Below, piece after piece: positions 52,835-62,169 of a stretch of DNA of 64,000 bases. The stretch's first letter is position 1. Each line of letters starts with the position of its first letter. The position numbers and the translations under genes were made by a program. The notes under the pieces are model-generated. The model was not told the DNA's origin, searched no databases, and saw only the letters and a list, made by a program, of their open reading frames with translations. Origin of the DNA: Flavobacteriaceae bacterium (lineage in GTDB: Bacteria; Bacteroidota; Bacteroidia; Flavobacteriales; Flavobacteriaceae); contig CANGTQ010000001.1 in the NCBI GenBank assembly GCA_947456955.1, forward strand, positions 348,538-412,537, in the 5' to 3' direction.

Positions 52835-53413
52835 CTATACTTTTATTTCATAACTATTTTGATAAGTAATCAAGGTTTCTCTTTTTTTGAATAACATTTT
52901 GGTATTTTGATGGGAAATATTGTAGAGAAGCAAATTATTATTCATCTCAAGCATTGAAAAATTTAAATCATCCATTGAGAAGTTATCAACAAATATTTCA
53001 TAAGAACCAATATAGCCCAATTCTTTTTGTTCGATATAAATACCCGGAGCATTTATATCATTTATGATTGCTTTTTTGACCTGATATAACGGAAATAAGT
53101 ACTGACTAGGTTCTAAGTCTTGAATATAGATTTTTTCTGTTTTTTTTCCGTTGAGCCAAAATTCAATTTGATGACGGGAGTTATGCATTAAACCACCAAT
53201 CTCTATAGACGCTAGTTTATCTATACTTGGGATTGAGTTTAATCGTAAATGATGATAAAAAAATGGATCTAATAAGGCTTGATGCAAAGGAAGTTTCAAT
53301 CTTGAAGCAATATTTTCAAAATATTCTTGTTCAATAGGGTTTAAAAGCACTTTCTTTAAATTCCATAACTCTCCAAAAAGGTTGATTTTGAGTTTTTGAA
53401 GATGTGAGTGCAT
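52835..53413 (-). CDS. Hypothetical protein
   Basis: 192-aa ORF in accessory island; no recognised motif. Confidence 0.55.
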   Translation of the reverse strand: MHSHLQKLKINLFGELWNLKKVLLNPIEQEYFENIASRLKLPLHQALLDPFFYHHLRLNSIPSIDKLASIEIGGLMHNSRHQIEFWLNGKKTEKIYIQDLEPSQYLFPLYQVKKAIINDINAPGIYIEQKELGYIGSYEIFVDNFSMDDLNFSMLEMNNNLLLYNISHQNTKMLFKKRETLITYQNSYEIKV

Positions 53414-53580
53414 AGGTGAATTTTTTGGAAAGAAATTATGTGATTTTATATTTGGAGATTCCCATTTATAAATTTTCTGTTTTTCTATCTTTATAAAAAT
53501 AATTGGTATTACCTTAAAATTTGTATACTAAAGTAAAAATTTTAAATTAAGATTTTTTTACCACATTTTTTTTTACATCG

Positions 53581-54276
53581 CTATTTATCCCACAAATAGT
53601 CGTAGTCATCGGGTAACTTTTCAATTTCATTAATTATTTTAGGCAAATCCTCATGTAGCTGTGCGAACATTTCTTGTACATCGATTTCATCATTCCATTC
53701 ACCCTCTAACATTTCTTCTAAATAATAATAGTGAATATAATTCATTGCTTTGGAAGTTGTATGACCCTGCACTAAGAGAGAATGTGCTACTGATTTCAAA
53801 TAATTTAAATTATCCTCATATTTTGTTGCCGCAAAAAAACCAACTACATAAGATTCATTGAAAATATCACGATCTTTAATTTTGAATTGTTCAAAAAACT
53901 GGTTGAAAGAGGTATTAAAAAAAATAGGATTTTTTTTAAATAATTCCGGAATAATTTTTTCAATAGATTGAGTAAAATCAACATCCCAAAAATGCTCCCA
54001 TAACTGGCATTTATCTACCTCCTCGAGTGTTTCATAATCAAATAACATATCGATTAGCCCTTGTCTAAAAACCAATCTTTTAAGTTGTTTTTTTGTTTTT
54101 ATTGGCTTTGGGTCAGGTGTTAAGTCACTCAGTTCACTTCTTAATTTAGAAACTTTAATAATATCTCCAAATTCAATTCTACCTATACCATTTTCATCAT
54201 CTTCAAACTTTAAATTCTTAACCAAAGCTAAGCATGGAGGCGTTAATTTAGTATAGTCAAATTTTTTATATCTCAT
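53581..54276 (-). CDS. Hypothetical acidic protein
   Basis: 231-aa ORF; no recognised motif. Confidence 0.6.
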   Translation of the reverse strand: MRYKKFDYTKLTPPCLALVKNLKFEDDENGIGRIEFGDIIKVSKLRSELSDLTPDPKPIKTKKQLKRLVFRQGLIDMLFDYETLEEVDKCQLWEHFWDVDFTQSIEKIIPELFKKNPIFFNTSFNQFFEQFKIKDRDIFNESYVVGFFAATKYEDNLNYLKSVAHSLLVQGHTTSKAMNYIHYYYLEEMLEGEWNDEIDVQEMFAQLHEDLPKIINEIEKLPDDYDYLWDK

Positions 54277-54385
54277 ATTTCTATTTTTAATTTAATGCAT
54301 TTTAAATTTTGAATATTAACTTCACTTTTGTACTGTGAAATTAGTTTTAATAATTATCATTTTTAAATGGAATTCAAAAGTAATA

Positions 54386-54805
54386 TTATCTTATTATACA
54401 AACGATTGCCCATTTCTCTGGGATTCCATCAAAGTAGTAAATAGATGCTCCATATTTATCTTTTATTCTCATATATTGTCCATCAACAAAATAGAGTACC
54501 TGTCCATATTTGTCTTTTTGTCTTATGGTTTGACCATCAAAATAATATAAAGCAGCTCCATATTTATCCTTAACACGTAGAGTATTTCCATCTAGAAAGT
54601 AGATTGATTGACCATATTTATCTTTTATTTAAATAGTTTGACCATCATTGTAAAAAAGAGGTGTTCCGTATTTATCTTTAGACCTCAATGTTAAACCATC
54701 AATATAGACAATTGGCTTACCATACTTGTCTTTCTGTTTAATACTTTGGGCTTTTACTGTCATTTGTATGATGAGTATTGGTAAAATTATTAAGATTTTT
54801 TTCAT
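54386..54805 (-). pseudogene. Exported tandem-repeat protein (about 21-aa KDKYGxxxYxxDGxTxR units) interrupted by an in-frame TAA
   Basis: Manual translation: MKKILIILPILIIQMTVKAQSIKQKDKYGKPIVYIDGLTLRSKDKYGTPLFYNDGQTI*IKDKYGQSIYFLDGNTLRVKDKYGAALYYFDGQTIRQKDKYGQVLYFVDGQYMRIKDKYGASIYYFDGIPEKWAIVCIIR*; stop at 54629-54631. Confidence 0.85.
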
Positions 54806-55006
54806 ATTATTTATTGTTATTTTTTAATTACAGGTGCTATTTAAAAGATAGCAAACTTTTTTAAAATCTGTTTTTTTAATCATTGAAATTTATATATATT
54901 TAGGAGTTCTTTTTTAAATTTTGATATGGGTATCACTATTATTAATAAAAGATTTAAATTCCTTTTTAATAATTAATTTTCCTTTGTCTAATACAACAAC
55001 CATGGT

Positions 55007-55369
55007 CTATAAGGTTTGTTCAGTTTCTTGTTTAAGAAACTCTATCTTATATTTTCCATCTGACAACGTGTAACCAGCACTCCTATCTTCATCATCATTA
55101 TGTATATTTGTAGCGTGAAAATCTTTTTTAGTAAATCTAACTAATTTTCTACAATTGCAATTAACTACTCTTATAATTTCATTAGGCAATGATTTAGCGA
55201 TTACTTGGATTCCATCTCCTTCATCTTTATTTTCAACGACTCTTAATCCTATGCCACCATCTTATAATGGAGCGATACCAATTTTTGTATGAAGTTATGC
55301 TGCCAAAACAATATTTGTTTGTTGTGAATTTGAACCAAAAGGGCAAAACAAAATTAACCTCACAATCAT
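55007..55369 (-). pseudogene. Hypothetical gene broken by two in-frame TAA codons
   Basis: Manual translation: MIVRLILFCPFGSNSQQTNIVLAA*LHTKIGIAPL*DGGIGLRVVENKDEGDGIQVIAKSLPNEIIRVVNCNCRKLVRFTKKDFHATNIHNDDEDRSAGYTLSDGKYKIEFLKQETEQTL*. Confidence 0.6.
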
Positions 55370-55458
55370 AAACCATAACTTTATCAAATTATAATATAAT
55401 TTCAGAGATAGTTATATTTAATAGTCCTTAATGTCTTTGATAGTTAAAAATGAATTTA

Positions 55459-56073
55459 TTAAGTTAACAAACTTGGATGAACAACTGCTTCAATAGGTTT
55501 GTCAAATAATTTAAAATTTTGAATACGTAAAGGTTCGACAGTCAAATAGGCTTTTGATACTTGATTCTCTAAATAAAAATTTCTTAATTTCATTAATAAT
55601 TGACCTAAAACATTAGCTCCAATTAGGTTATTGGGATTACTCTTATCTTCTTTTGTGCCCCAAAAAAAATCTTTATGGCTAACTTCAACGATAGGTCTAT
55701 TTCCCGTTTTCTTTAATAAATCACCGAAACCGTTAGGATTACAAGCTAGTTTTACTCTCAAACACCAATACATAATCGCCACTTTTTCGTCTTCAAAATC
55801 GGCTCTTGTACATTTTAGTCTATGCGGCTTTGACTTCATTTTTGCAGCCATTGGACTCGTTTGCTTGATAATTTCTTGTTGAATTTCTGGATTATCAGGA
55901 AAACGACAAGCTTGATATAAAGCTTCAGAAGTTAAAATTCTTCTTTTATTTACCAATAATGGATAATCTTTTCCTTTCATATTGGACAATCCACCCCACT
56001 CTGTATCTACTTTTTGAAACCAGCAGGAACCTTTTTTAGAATAGGTTTGGTGGTTGAAATTAACATTTTGCAT
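55459..56073 (-). CDS. NADAR-domain protein (YbiA-like, DUF1768)
   Basis: WGGLSNMKGKDYPLLVNKRRILTSEALYQACRFPDNPEIQQEIIKQTSPMAAKMKSK; MYWCLRVKLACNP; FFWGTKEDKSNPNNLIGANVLGQLLMKLR. Confidence 0.9.
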   Translation of the reverse strand: MQNVNFNHQTYSKKGSCWFQKVDTEWGGLSNMKGKDYPLLVNKRRILTSEALYQACRFPDNPEIQQEIIKQTSPMAAKMKSKPHRLKCTRADFEDEKVAIMYWCLRVKLACNPNGFGDLLKKTGNRPIVEVSHKDFFWGTKEDKSNPNNLIGANVLGQLLMKLRNFYLENQVSKAYLTVEPLRIQNFKLFDKPIEAVVHPSLLT

Positions 56074-56211
56074 ACTTCTCTTTATTTATTAAGATTAAAA
56101 AACTTTATTAAAAATCCTACACTCTTTGTTATAAAGAGAAGTATTTGATGTTTTGTGACAAAAAAGCTTTTAATATATTATTGCAAAGACATCAGGGGTA
56201 TTTCGTAATCT

Positions 56212-57117
56212 TTAGCTGATATAATTTAGAACAGAAGGTTTCTTTCTTACTAATTCTAAAATAAAATCTTTATCATCTTTTATGCTATCTGTAGCAAAAT
56301 GAAGAAATCGTTCAGGTGCTCTAAACCGTTTTTCAGTATCATTTATGATTTCTAAACAGAACGATTTATCATTCATTATCAAACTAGGAATATATCTTAT
56401 TACATAATATTCAATATTTCTCCAATGAGCTGCATCATCAAATAATGGTTCTATACCATTGGCTTCTAGAGCTACTTTAATAATTTCCTTATCCTGCTTT
56501 AATTCATCATTTAAATGAGAATAGTTATAGCATCCTTTTGTCACAGCCATCAATGCAATATCTTTATCGCCATAAAACATATCGTCTAAGTAACAAAACG
56601 AATTAGGCTCAATTTCAAGAATTTTATAAACTACTTCTTTGTCTTTCAAAAGGTTTTCTCCCGCATTTTCCGTAATACTTTTCTTTTCAATTTCACATCT
56701 TAAATTATATTCTATATCAATGATGCCCATTTCATCCCATCGTTCTCCCTCTTCTTGACAACTACTTTTTAGTTTTGAAAAAACATAGTCAGCACCAGTA
56801 TGGGATAATGCAAATAAAAAAAGATCTTTATCTTCTCTTAGTGCTTTAGGTAATTGAGAAAATAAATAGCCACTACAAAGTGGTATCAGCTCTTTTACAA
56901 AATCTTTATTAAAGCGTAAAGTGGCATCAACCAAATCGAAATACTTTAAACCTATAAAAATGTTCGGATATCCATTAAAAAATTCAATATATTCATACCA
57001 AGGTCTATCAAAAGCAGCCGTTGCAAGAGCTTTATCTGCCAGATATTTTTTAGGTACTGTTACTAAAGCATTAAAATCTTGCTTGATTGCTTCTATATAT
57101 TTTGTTTTTTCTGACAT
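56212..57117 (-). CDS. DUF4116-like repeat protein (copy 1)
   Basis: LREDKDLFLFALSHTGADYVFSKL, DKEVVYKILEIEPNSFCYLDD-type repeats; start at MSEKTKYIEA, matching the paralogue. Confidence 0.75.
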   Translation of the reverse strand: MSEKTKYIEAIKQDFNALVTVPKKYLADKALATAAFDRPWYEYIEFFNGYPNIFIGLKYFDLVDATLRFNKDFVKELIPLCSGYLFSQLPKALREDKDLFLFALSHTGADYVFSKLKSSCQEEGERWDEMGIIDIEYNLRCEIEKKSITENAGENLLKDKEVVYKILEIEPNSFCYLDDMFYGDKDIALMAVTKGCYNYSHLNDELKQDKEIIKVALEANGIEPLFDDAAHWRNIEYYVIRYIPSLIMNDKSFCLEIINDTEKRFRAPERFLHFATDSIKDDKDFILELVRKKPSVLNYIS

Positions 57118-57165
57118 ATTGCATAAAATATAATGAAAAGTCTTGAGCGTACGGAGTTCTACCAA

Positions 57166-58086
57166 TTATTTTACTTTTAACGCCAATATATCTGGATCAT
57201 TTTTAAGCCTTTCGCTGGCATATTCTATCAGTTTATAATTTTTACTTACAGCTAATAAAACCAAATCTTTATCATCTTTAAATTCTTTCGAAAAGTGGTA
57301 TAGTGCAAATTCACCACCATGACAATTAATAAGATTAATTAAGAATGATTTGTCGCTTTTCAATCTATCACTTAATGCATCAAAAAAGTCGAAACCTACA
57401 TTAAGCCAACGTCCATAAGCGTCAAATTCAGACCAGTATTCTCCGTATAAATATGCAGCATCTAAAGCAATTTCCTCATCATCTCTAAGTCTATTACTAA
57501 CATATTTAAAATTAGCGCCATCTGTTGAAACGGCCTCAAGAGCGACTTCTTTATCATCCTTTAAAGCATCGCTGAAATAATAAAAACCTTGTTCTTCTAA
57601 TGCTATGGTTTTTAAAACTACTTCTTTATTATTCAAAATAGTTTCTCCTGCATACCGCATTACACTCATTCGTTGGTGTATATGCAGAAACAAATCATAT
57701 CTTATATCCTCAACATGGTCTCTATCATAATCTTCTCCATCAGGCATAGCATCTTCTAGCATTTTATCATAGATGTACTCATATCCCGAATGTTTAAGTG
57801 AAAATAATAAAATTTTCTCGTCTTCTCTTAGCGCTAATGGCAAATACTCAAATAAATATCCGCTACAAGATGCTATTATTTCCTTGACAAAATCTTTGTT
57901 ATATCGTAAAGTAGCATCTGCCAATTTAAACAATTCTAAAACTTCAAAATTAGTATCGTAATCGTACCACTTTCTAACTAATGCTGCCGTAATTATATCT
58001 TTATCCGCTAAATATTCTTTTGGGAGTGTTTTTAATAATTCGGGGTTCTCTTTTAATTTTTCTATATAATTTGCTTTTTCTGACAT
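57166..58086 (-). CDS. DUF4116-like repeat protein (copy 2)
   Basis: LKDDKEVALEAVSTDGANFKYVSNRLRDDEEIALDAA; start at MSEKANYIEK, 46 codons inside the listed ORF. Confidence 0.8.
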   Translation of the reverse strand: MSEKANYIEKLKENPELLKTLPKEYLADKDIITAALVRKWYDYDTNFEVLELFKLADATLRYNKDFVKEIIASCSGYLFEYLPLALREDEKILLFSLKHSGYEYIYDKMLEDAMPDGEDYDRDHVEDIRYDLFLHIHQRMSVMRYAGETILNNKEVVLKTIALEEQGFYYFSDALKDDKEVALEAVSTDGANFKYVSNRLRDDEEIALDAAYLYGEYWSEFDAYGRWLNVGFDFFDALSDRLKSDKSFLINLINCHGGEFALYHFSKEFKDDKDLVLLAVSKNYKLIEYASERLKNDPDILALKVK

Positions 58087-58145
58087 AATAATTTTAATAT
58101 GAATTATATATAATGAATGTTTATTTTTCTTTTTAATTATGACTT

Positions 58146-58292
58146 TTATTTTTTGAGAAGAAATTCGATTAATTGCAATACAAGTCCAAATAAGATTAAA
58201 AACAAAGCAACTAAATATGCACACGGCTGAATTTTCGCTAATTTCAATGCAAAAGCAGAATATGCCTCTTTAAACTCAACACTAGCGTTCAT
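58146..58292 (-). CDS. Small single-TM protein (48 aa), absent from ORF track
   Basis: MNASVEFKEAYSAFALKLAKIQPCAYLVALFLILFGLVLQLIEFLLKK*; amphipathic N-terminus plus TM segment. Confidence 0.4.
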   Translation of the reverse strand: MNASVEFKEAYSAFALKLAKIQPCAYLVALFLILFGLVLQLIEFLLKK

Positions 58293-58366
58293 TCATTTTA
58301 AAAAAGTTAAGCTGATAAAATACATATAACAAATTACCATAATCCATAAACCTAAAGTTGTGATAG

Positions 58367-58549
58367 TCACGATTTATTATTGTAATAAAGGTACAACCCT
58401 AAATAATTTACAAATACAAACAAGCAAGAAAACCCAGCTGTTAAAAACTGACCACTATGAGTCCAATGATTAACTACACATAACATACCTGCGCTAAGCA
58501 GAGAACCTGCTGCCATACCAAACCCACAAATAATCTTTTTACTTTCCAT
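58367..58549 (-). CDS. Small membrane protein
   Basis: 60 aa with two hydrophobic segments. Confidence 0.45.
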   Translation of the reverse strand: MESKKIICGFGMAAGSLLSAGMLCVVNHWTHSGQFLTAGFSCLFVFVNYLGLYLYYNNKS

Positions 58550-58646
58550 AATTATTAAAATTTTTACATTTTACGTTGTTATTAAAAACTTCTTTTATAT
58601 GTAAAGAAAATTATTTGTGGTTTTGTGACAATTTTTAAAAAGTTTT

Positions 58647-60293
58647 TTATAAGCCAAACTTTCCGCCTGTAATATGACCATGATGGTTGGCAAGGATTTC
58701 TCCAATTTTTAAATCATTATTAAAAACTCCCAATTTATATAATTTATCAGCAATTATTATTGGATAGTTTCTGGTGGATACGGTGGTTTCGTCGGTCGGT
58801 AAAATTTTCACAATCAACTCTGAATAAAATTTTACTTGAGCGTTATCTAAAATATATGATGAATTAAGACTATCATTATTTATAGGAGAATTAATTAGTA
58901 TTTTTTTTTCAGTATTAAATTTAATTATAAAAAAATTAAATAAGCTAATTTCATTAGCCATTAAGAAATCAAAATAAAAACCATCACCATACCTTACTTC
59001 TGAATTAGTTATTAAATCATTACTTAAAAAATAATGCTCTCTAATTTCTATTAATTTATTTAAAATTAATGTCTTATTAGTATCTAATAATTTCTTATAT
59101 AAAGCATATGGATTTTCATCTAAAATAGGAGTTAGATGTTCACTTAATAATATTTTTTTTAATTTCTCATTTTCCTGAATAGCCCAATAGGCAATTAATT
59201 GAGCAAAGGATTCATGTGTTTTTTTATCATCTGCTGAATATCCTATTCTCCAATTTTTATTATTCCATTTTGGCCAATGAGATAGCCAATGTCCTAATTC
59301 GTGCATCAAAACGATAAGTGCAAAATGATTTTTATTTAATTTAAAGTTTGAACAATAATCTTTTATTGCTTTAGAATAAATAATTATAATACCTTCTTGT
59401 GTTGTTTTATCATCATTTACTATATATTTATAACAACCAAACCGGTCGGGATTTTCATAAAAATTATCCAATTCATCTAAACAATATTCTTCATCAATAT
59501 ATACTTCAGGAAATCGATTAATCTTAAAACCAATGTCCTCAAAAATCTTTTTAAGTTTAATCATCTTGTTCATTTCTTGTTCTGAAAATCGATATGCTTT
59601 TAAGTGATTTTTTATAATTAATTGAGTTTCTATATAGTTTATAAAATCAGTAATAGTGGTTGTTATTTTAGTACTTTGTTGATTTGCAAATAAAATTAAG
59701 TCTAAAGAAGCTTTATTATTCAAATCCAACAATTTCTCTCTTAGGCGTTGAAATGTTTTCCTAAATGTGCTGTCTTTTTCAGTGAGACCTATTTCAACAG
59801 CCACTTTGTTTAAGTTCTTATAGAATTCACCTTCTAATTCAGCCAATGAAATTTCTATCATTAACAAAAATAGTTCACTTTCCTTTACTGTTAATGTCCC
59901 TCCTTTTATTATTGCATCTGCGTATAGCGAAATGTTTTTGTAATTTTCATTTGGATTTATATTCTCTTCCTGGAGTATTTGATTAAAATATCCATCTTCA
60001 ACAGAATACATCCCTCCTTTTTGTTTATTGTAAGCTTTAGCCAATTCCAAATGAAATCCAGGATTAAGCCAATAAGTAGATAAAATTATTCCACTTGAAT
60101 GTCTTTTGTTTAATATTAAAACCCCTTCAGAAACAATATCTGCTACTGCAAATGTATCCTGATTTATAAGATCTTTAAACCTTCTAAAAAGATTATTCGT
60201 TACTATTTGAACTGCATTGGAGGACCAACTAGGATAATACACTTTTAGATTCTCATTAACTATTTGCCATGCATCATTTCTAGGGTTTTTCAT
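58647..60293 (-). CDS. Putative zinc metallopeptidase-like protein of unknown family
   Basis: LIVLMHELGHWLSHW (HExxH) followed about 30 aa later by THESFAQLIAYWA; long N-terminal helical region. Confidence 0.7.
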   Translation of the reverse strand: MKNPRNDAWQIVNENLKVYYPSWSSNAVQIVTNNLFRRFKDLINQDTFAVADIVSEGVLILNKRHSSGIILSTYWLNPGFHLELAKAYNKQKGGMYSVEDGYFNQILQEENINPNENYKNISLYADAIIKGGTLTVKESELFLLMIEISLAELEGEFYKNLNKVAVEIGLTEKDSTFRKTFQRLREKLLDLNNKASLDLILFANQQSTKITTTITDFINYIETQLIIKNHLKAYRFSEQEMNKMIKLKKIFEDIGFKINRFPEVYIDEEYCLDELDNFYENPDRFGCYKYIVNDDKTTQEGIIIIYSKAIKDYCSNFKLNKNHFALIVLMHELGHWLSHWPKWNNKNWRIGYSADDKKTHESFAQLIAYWAIQENEKLKKILLSEHLTPILDENPYALYKKLLDTNKTLILNKLIEIREHYFLSNDLITNSEVRYGDGFYFDFLMANEISLFNFFIIKFNTEKKILINSPINNDSLNSSYILDNAQVKFYSELIVKILPTDETTVSTRNYPIIIADKLYKLGVFNNDLKIGEILANHHGHITGGKFGL

Positions 60294-60302
60294 TTTTTTA
60301 AA

Positions 60303-61238
60303 TTATTGGTGAGTAACAAAATAATCATCAGACAATTTTTCACTTTGAGTATGCCTATAAGCTACTAAAATACCATCTTTAGCAATACTATAATCTACAC
60401 AACAACTATTGGAACTCATTAATTTCACTTTAGTCGCATCCATCCAATAATGACCAAAGAAAACAGGAATATGTTGATTTTCGTAGTAAAAATCATAATC
60501 GTGATTAAAATCAGAAATATCTTTATCAACCATGTGCTCAGGCAGCGAAGCAAAATCAACGCCGAAGAATGTTCGCTTTCTAGCTTGCCACCATTTAATC
60601 CGAGCTTCTGTTCTTGGTTCTGATCCATGATCTACATAGTGTAAAGCTTCAGGTAATTGAAGTTCTTTTCCTTTCAGTAAGATTTCAATAGACTTATATA
60701 AGTTGGAATCTGCATGAGCAGCTCTTAGACCAGTTTCATCTAATTTCTCTAAAGATGCGTTCTTTAAAACCTCGATAGCATTTTCTTCCCATTGTGCGTG
60801 AACTGCTCTAAAATTTTCGGACTCGAGTGCTATTGGTAATTGAGCCATCCAATCTAAATAACTGTCTAAATCCTTTCCTAAAAAGGCAGCATCTGTCTCT
60901 TTTACTTGATTCCTTTTAGCTTGACTTCTAAAAGTGTTTGCTTCTTTATCTTTATAATTTAATTCTAAAAAGTTTAACTCATGGTTTCCCATTAAAGCAA
61001 TCGCATTGCCTGTTTCTTGCATTTTTTTGACTAAGTCAACCGTATCAAATATTTTAGGTCCGCGGTCTATATAGTCACCTATAAATACAGGATATCGTTC
61101 TGGATGAGTATAGATTCCATCGTTATTAGTATAACCCATTTTATTAAACAATTGCACCAAAGCATCATAATGGCCGTGAATATCACCTATGAAATCAGGT
61201 TGTTTTCTTTGATTGTAATCAATAATTAATTTACTCAT
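60303..61238 (-). CDS. Calcineurin-like metallophosphoesterase
   Basis: DFIGDIHGHYDAL; VFIGDYIDRGPKIFDTVDLV; ALMGNHELNFLEL; FFGHYWM: complete phosphoesterase motif set. Confidence 0.92.
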   Translation of the reverse strand: MSKLIIDYNQRKQPDFIGDIHGHYDALVQLFNKMGYTNNDGIYTHPERYPVFIGDYIDRGPKIFDTVDLVKKMQETGNAIALMGNHELNFLELNYKDKEANTFRSQAKRNQVKETDAAFLGKDLDSYLDWMAQLPIALESENFRAVHAQWEENAIEVLKNASLEKLDETGLRAAHADSNLYKSIEILLKGKELQLPEALHYVDHGSEPRTEARIKWWQARKRTFFGVDFASLPEHMVDKDISDFNHDYDFYYENQHIPVFFGHYWMDATKVKLMSSNSCCVDYSIAKDGILVAYRHTQSEKLSDDYFVTHQ

Positions 61239-61243
61239 ATTTG

Positions 61244-61576
61244 TTATTTTACTTTTAATTCTTCTCTCATTATTCTTAAGGTATTAACGGTACATTTTTC
61301 GATTGCTGCATTTTCATCTGTATTTAGAAATTCAGTAATAAAAAAAGCTAAAAAGATACTAATGAACGTGTTTAATAGTAACCGGACTTCATTTTCTGTC
61401 TTGCTAAAATAATATATATTAACTAGCATCATGAAAATGAACAGAAAACCTCTAAAAAAGTTTCTTGAAAATAAGAAACTTAGAAATTTTGAAACTCTAA
61501 TAGAAATCAATAATTCTTCGTCAGTGTGGTTTTTGAATTGTTCTCGGATTGCTTTTGTTTCTTTTGATGTATCCAT
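61244..61576 (-). CDS. Two-TM hypothetical protein
   Basis: FLFIFMMLVNIYYF and LLNTFISIFLAFFITEF segments; 5-bp gap to the phosphoesterase gene. Confidence 0.6.
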   Translation of the reverse strand: MDTSKETKAIREQFKNHTDEELLISIRVSKFLSFLFSRNFFRGFLFIFMMLVNIYYFSKTENEVRLLLNTFISIFLAFFITEFLNTDENAAIEKCTVNTLRIMREELKVK

Positions 61577-61720
61577 AACATTAATTTTCAGAGTAATTAA
61601 AATGATAGTCAAATTGCTTATCGTATCTATTCTATTAACTATTGTAGCATCTTTTATTGATCCTAAAAAAGATTTTATAATTTTTCCATTTGAATAAAAA
61701 TCAAAACTATAAATAACATT

Positions 61721-62043
61721 TTATAAATTAAAACTGGTGTCTAAATTTCCGTAAGATTGGAAATCAAAAACATAAAATTTAATATAACTTCCTTCTGACC
61801 AATATTTATCATTATAATATTCATAATAAAGCGATTCATCACAAACTCTTTTTGCAGCATATTTAGATATTATAGTATCTCTTGTGGTAGTAAAAACCTG
61901 GACATTTTTCATACCTAAAACTCTTTGTTTTAGAGAAGTGATTTGTATTAAATCTAATGATTCAGTAAACTTTTCCTTCTTAAATTCCTTAGCATTTATA
62001 GCTAAGTCTAGAAATAGTAAAATAAAAAAGAGTTCTTTTTCAT
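61721..62043 (-). pseudogene. Frameshifted exported protein (frameshift in start-proximal A-tract)
   Basis: ATG AAAAAG frame hits TAG after 11 codons; the alternate frame reads ...KELFFILLFLDLAINAKEFKKEKFTESLDLIQITSLKQRVLGMKNVQVFTTTRDTIISKYAAKRVCDESLYYEYYNDKYW...FNL*. Confidence 0.6.
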
Positions 62044-62169
62044 ATTATTTATTTTTAGATTAGTTACTAAATCCAAATTTTAAAAAAGTAATTAATATCA
62101 ATATAACTGATCACTATTCAAAAATAATTTATTAAAATCCACTTGTCAAATATATGGCAGTACAAATAA

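Follow-up and report, generated by a model that had tools for sequence, protein, structure and literature searches.

What does a block of minus-strand genes do that brings together a NADAR protein, two DUF4116 repeat proteins, a calcineurin-like phosphoesterase and a protein with an HExxH motif, and do these genes work as one system? The block lies in a stretch of 64,000 nucleotides (hereafter the window) of the Flavobacteriaceae bacterium assembly GCA_947456955.1 (contig CANGTQ010000001.1, positions 348,538 to 412,537), which forms the final 64 kb of a contig of 412,537 bases in a genome of 2.49 Mb, judged Flavobacterium-like from its gene content and relatives. A first-pass annotation, made without database searches, took the locus for a possible conflict or stress module, with the HExxH protein as effector and with NADAR and the phosphoesterase to reverse or process a modification. 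The named genes all lie on the minus strand at the coordinates that annotation gave, and family matches bear out its NADAR, its DUF4116 pair and its phosphoesterase. We propose, with a probability of about one half, that the block is a variable island of the conflict type (defence or competition), in which three or more units are transcribed separately, and not a single machine.

The argument starts from the HExxH protein (548 aa; 58647..60293, minus strand), which matched no family in Pfam, NCBIfam, PADLOC, PHROG or the Protein Data Bank (PDB), in line with the first-pass annotation, which had left it unassigned. Relatives were sought with a degenerate DNA pattern for HE.[GA]HW..HW over a collection of genomes from 85,488 species, which returned 23 loci; one of these, in Verrucomicrobia (L010), was dropped as a chance match of the DNA motif because it lacks the downstream Glu motif. 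The remaining 21 further members, all from metagenome-assembled genomes (MAGs) of Bacteroidota and many of them from freshwater, were aligned with the window protein and have in common the C-terminal motifs AYRFS..E, RFPEVYYD, EG.I.L, VLMHELGHW.SHW and THE..AQLIAYW. Residues H331, E332, G334, H335, W336, H339, W340, E361 and A364 are invariant in the 22 sequences; since the relatives conserve all of these up to E361, the HExxH motif is not a chance occurrence. Gluzincins are recognised by an HExxH motif whose second His is followed, 26 residues on, by a Glu, and in the C-terminal zincin-like domain of the window protein (about residues 231-430, minus strand) the predicted zinc ligands are H331, H335 and E361 and the predicted catalytic residue is E332.

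Ahead of this domain lies a helical one (about residues 1-230; 59604..60293, minus strand). As a profile, the first 230 residues of the protein match the corresponding part of seven relatives (L006, L007, L008, L011, L015, L016 and L026) at 44 bits, the best of 2000 shuffles reaching 12.5 bits, so that the window protein belongs to a long type that joins the helical domain to the peptidase-like one. A sigma-factor-like origin of the helical domain was an impression only, and Pfam gave it no support. As to the fold, Zincin_1 matches weakly in 8 of the 22 members (best E = 5.7e-4), the PDB search gave a weak match to a predicted zincin-like protease (E = 0.074), and structural matches to proteins of the BepA, DPP III and YbeY types have E values of about 0.75 to 9.5; these matches agree with a zincin fold without proving it. 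The HExxH protein is probably a metallopeptidase from an undescribed zincin-like family of Bacteroidota. Its gene is not a core gene, because single-sequence searches found it only in its own genome, both among 301 genomes of the bacterial family and among 400 of the genus, three marginal fragments aside (E from 8.7e-4 to 9.9e-4), which are not convincing, two having internal stops and the third lying inside a 1257-aa frame. Across 398 genomes of the order, a profile search yielded a single partial match (E = 1.8e-5).

The evidence that the family keeps particular company is its association with NADAR. NADAR genes stand 0.4-4.3 kb from the HExxH gene at L006, L011, L013, L018, L019, L020 and L027, and across the 22 HExxH-bearing genomes, the window's included, 12 of the 21 copies of NADAR share the locus of the HExxH gene (for this count L011 was extended as L102). 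A chance model with a target of +/-8 kb in about 2.7 Mb gives about 0.1 expected. Counted over NADAR copies, the binomial probability is 5e-22; when each genome contributes a single event and a pair of near-identical loci is merged, it is 2e-9. Neither figure controls for hotspots. With 12 of the 21 copies co-located, the association is real at the level of the family. The first-pass annotation had named rare co-occurrence, or a housekeeping peptidase family, as grounds for giving up its proposal; for the HExxH/NADAR pair neither was found. Beside NADAR itself, an 812-851 aa family without assignment adjoins the gene in two genomes (L006, 2873-5428; L100, 4932-7370).

Other neighbours of the HExxH relatives recur as well. 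An AAA ATPase gene and a gene for a protein of 73-78 aa precede HExxH in L008, L011 and L016, with an AAA gene nearby in L015; the best-matching models, of the CdvC and antiphage IteA types, and models of the proteasome-activator type match these AAA proteins far below their cut-offs (IteA at 70 bits, cut-off 510). The gene after HExxH often comes from one of three families, UDGa, UDGb and UDGc, for which identity as uracil-DNA glycosylases holds for UDGb only (Pfam 4.9e-5, just under the cut-off); UDGa and UDGc are weakly related (E = 8e-5, probability 61), and comparison of UDGa with UDGb gave no relation. The order AAA, 73-78 aa protein, HExxH, UDGa/b/c was observed at L008, L011/L102, L015 and L016, in MAGs of Sphingobacteriaceae, Chryseobacterium, Chitinophaga and Spirosoma, and this recurring operon is possibly a new defence operon. 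Elsewhere a gene for a FYWYP protein of about 130 aa follows HExxH almost without a gap (L006, L013, L018, L019 and L027). The HExxH unit of the window contains no AAA ATPase.

One further family, c4, is encoded near HExxH in L005, L007, L014, L023 and L102, and in L156, from a further genome of the window's genus, its gene adjoins one for a DUF4116 protein. Its motifs (W-H, FANN, YDYWRID and IP.EA.LF) resemble those of ADP-ribosyltransferases (ARTs) by eye; the ART fold is unproven, the predicted structure having a predicted local distance difference test (pLDDT) score of 39.7, with no PDB match and no informative Pfam match.

The NADAR protein of the window (55459..56073, minus strand) carries the NADAR domain (PF08719, 78.3 bits against a cut-off of 35.1, E = 1.1e-21) and scores 225.3 bits against the NCBIfam model DS32_2, whose cut-off is 240. 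A tree of 47 NADARs groups it with four from Flavobacterium (support 93/94), a placing that is not beyond doubt because the window protein has a long branch (0.74). The genes of those four directly follow PRTase-CE genes (DS32_1, 289-320 bits; L090, L091, L092 and L093), and with the two genes adjoining, these loci are complete DS-32 systems. No PRTase-CE match to DS32_1 was obtained in the window's own genome, nor any by tblastn in the window. Both active-site Glu residues are retained, that of SEALYQ and the one on the last strand (as in YbiA), with Arg at the position of the essential Lys95 of the E. coli C7 NADAR; the K95R form of a NADAR retained activity in vitro (residue roles from PMC11543638 and PMC11125620). 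By its sequence, the protein is most aptly called a solitary NADAR of the DS-32 clade. The DS names presumably come from DefensePredictor (PMC13092281), the main text of which does not mention DS-32. The sequence models of Pfam, NCBIfam and PADLOC recognised no ART among the ten proteins of 52835-61612, a negative that does not extend to structure and that repeats what the first-pass annotation had reported; the label "NAD/ADP-ribose-linked" given to the locus is owed to NADAR and to nothing else in it.

The phosphoesterase (311 aa, calcineurin-like or PPP type; 60303..61238, minus strand; Metallophos E = 7.7e-12) ends 9 bp upstream of the HExxH gene and follows a small transmembrane (TM) protein gene by 5 bp, spacings that the first-pass annotation had given correctly. 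That annotation took the first gene of the unit to encode a TM protein, as its hydrophobic stretches also suggest on inspection; the start it placed at TTG 61612, to which the open reading frame (ORF) reaches, gives way to a probable ATG at 61576 (61244..61576, minus strand). Upstream of this gene, 61721-62063 holds a small ORF and frame remnants, perhaps of a decayed gene. Close relatives of the phosphoesterase, 38-44% identical, occur in 12 of 249 other genomes of the genus, and within 1.5-kb flanks none of the 12 loci has HExxH or NADAR beside it; nor was a phosphoesterase found at other HExxH loci. The co-occurrence foreseen in the first-pass annotation therefore stands for HExxH with NADAR (12 of 21 copies) and finds no support for the phosphoesterase (0 of 12 other Flavobacterium loci, no other HExxH locus). 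The nearest families are the phosphatase domain of bacterial Pnkp, ApaH and PrpE; against the Pnkp model the protein scores 65.8 bits (cut-off 750), only the phosphatase-like domain being present, and its nearest relative adjoins a P-loop kinase-like gene.

Between HExxH and NADAR lies a third group of genes. The first ORF after HExxH encodes a small hydrophobic protein of 60 aa (58367..58549, minus strand) and is followed by two genes for DUF4116 repeat proteins, namely protein b (57166..58086, minus strand; ORF to 58224, likely ATG near 58086; E = 5.5e-36) and protein a (56212..57117, minus strand; ORF to 57165, likely ATG near 57117; E = 1.5e-29), which are 39% identical and whose corrected starts both give MSEK..YIE. 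A repeated 30-nt element precedes both this group and NADAR: copy 1 (TTGTCACAAAACNNCAAATA...; 56132..56161, minus strand) is about 60-90 bp upstream of NADAR, and copy 2 (58602..58631, minus strand) is upstream of the small-TM/DUF4116 unit. The copies are 87% identical, and across the whole 2.49-Mb genome their 20-bp core is found without mismatch at two sites only, both of them within the island; a third near-copy, with one mismatch, was set aside as lying inside a coding frame. As read from the sequence, the element ties NADAR to the small-TM/DUF4116 unit and not to the HExxH operon. Nothing useful matched the small TM proteins or the pair of proteins at 52835-54276 in the libraries scanned (Pfam, NCBIfam and PADLOC among them). 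Also on this side of the block, 54425-54805 holds an array of 54-bp (18-codon) repeats with a signal-peptide-like ORF of 58 aa, possibly a decayed secreted repeat protein. A second accessory array in the same genome (L153, C16:20001-40000) encodes two fusions of WG repeats with DUF4116 and includes a gene that resembles the neighbour of the phosphoesterase in L096.

The block sits beyond the proteorhodopsin and blh genes, with blh at its border. In most of the relatives examined (other Flavobacterium genomes) dnaK comes directly after blh or with one gene between, and in the window's genome dnaK is at C1:17691, some 380 kb away, so the region has been rearranged or has received an insertion. 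Only 1.4 kb separates the block from the contig end, so that the far border of the block is out of view. Integron-type cassettes were considered and dropped: a repeat search gave no attC-like array, no dedicated attC search having been made.

From protein families and gene neighbourhoods we infer every function proposed here, including the transcription units, the peptidase activity, the effector role and its trigger, the regulator role of the phosphoesterase, the NADAR substrate and defence itself. The first unit would comprise the TM protein, the PPP phosphoesterase and the zincin-like HExxH protein; the helical domain of the latter most likely senses or docks a partner, as it is common to relatives encoded beside AAA ATPases, and would free the peptidase effector on a trigger, with the phosphoesterase and TM protein serving as regulator or anchor. 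The second unit would hold the small TM ORFs and the two DUF4116 proteins, and the third the solitary NADAR of the DS-32 type, which most likely acts as an ADP-ribosyl hydrolase that protects from ADP-ribosylating attack; these two units have an upstream element in common and may be co-expressed. HExxH would then probably be a proteolytic effector and NADAR a solitary eraser.

Several results weigh against this account. Foldseek with the predicted HExxH structure gave best matches of E = 0.22 or worse, so that the fold is not confirmed, and the mean pLDDT of that structure is 68.9 (above 90 in the core). The NADARs linked to HExxH form a separate clade (98/95) that excludes the window NADAR, and the phosphoesterase/HExxH pairing has been seen so far in the window's genome only. 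No members of the HExxH family were found in phage, plasmid or viral collections, and neither an integrase nor any further mobility gene was recognised next to the block, whose far side is the contig end.

The strongest rival, possible if unlikely, is that unrelated accessory genes gathered at a permissive site, with no joint action of NADAR, DUF4116 and the HExxH unit, and that HExxH and NADAR meet elsewhere only through common hotspots. The different clade of the window NADAR, the separate upstream regions, the unlinked phosphoesterase and the mixture of many gene families in relatives' islands all speak for it; against it, more than half of the NADAR copies (12 of 21) lie at HExxH loci and the neighbours form a repeating set (AAA, FYWYP, UDGa/b/c), which is more order than a random hotspot would show. 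A bolder reading, which we hold to be rather improbable, is a new modular conflict system of Bacteroidota with HExxH effectors (helical docking domain and zincin) and exchangeable regulators (AAA ATPase and small protein, or PPP phosphoesterase and TM protein), whose ADP-ribose arm would consist of NADAR erasers and possibly of an ART-like family. That NADAR and the phosphoesterase jointly reverse or process an ADP-ribose modification while HExxH is the effector fits the tight TM/phosphoesterase/HExxH unit and the recurrence of the HExxH family near NADAR; it is a poor candidate, as no ART was found, the window NADAR is an orphan DS-32 component, and the phosphoesterase is missing from other HExxH loci and occurs without HExxH in 12 other genomes. 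The single system of the first-pass annotation is a weak reading of the window on these grounds and on the apparently separate transcription units. Its conflict reading survives in part: HExxH may belong with NADAR-bearing conflict loci, and a modular island agrees better with the evidence than a single system does. Equally hard to credit is a physiological module of regulated proteolysis or RNA repair, which the likeness of the phosphoesterase to Pnkp phosphatase, ApaH and PrpE and the P-loop kinase-like neighbour of its nearest relative would suit; against it speak the non-core distribution of the HExxH gene and the company of NADAR and AAA genes that its family keeps.

The analysis brings out a small, previously unassigned zincin-like family that recurrently has NADAR as its genomic partner and in which E332, H331/H335 and E361 are the predicted active-site residues. 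If peptidase and ADP-ribose erasers do act together, bacterial conflict would tie proteolytic effectors to the ADP-ribosylation of nucleic acids, and no description of such a combination was found in the literature searched. The repeated placing of HExxH relatives beside enzymes that erase ADP-ribose from nucleic acids, in other freshwater bacteria, hints at a type of conflict locus that has received little study.

Known systems resemble the island in its parts. The window NADAR probably groups with those of the antiphage system DS-32 (DS32_1 PRTase-CE with DS32_2 NADAR), at a score just under the cut-off, whereas the PRTase-CE partner is absent from the window's genome. With the toxin-antitoxin pairs DarT1-NADAR and YarT-YbiA (PMC11543638, PMC11125620) it has in common the NADAR fold family, the SEALYQ Glu and the last-strand Glu; NADARs linked to DarT1 differ in having a last-strand Asp where the window protein has Glu, besides its Arg at the Lys95 position, and DarT1-NADAR has an adjacent ART gene, whereas none was recognised in the window. 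Bacterial Pnkp, ApaH and PrpE, of the PPP superfamily, are the best matches of the phosphoesterase, which stands alone at 311 aa, far below curated cut-offs, whereas Pnkp also has kinase and ligase domains. In antiphage pairs of the IetAS type, the partner of the AAA ATPase is a serine protease. HExxH relatives likewise adjoin AAA ATPases, with a weak IteA match, whereas the window unit has no AAA gene and its peptidase is zincin-like and not a serine protease. Finally, the HExxH family is like the zincins (Zincin_1 PF06262, M48, DPP III) in its HExxH motif and downstream Glu and in its weak Pfam, PDB and Foldseek matches; it has no significant match among them, and is set apart by the extra invariant W336, H339 and W340 and by a distinct N-terminal domain.

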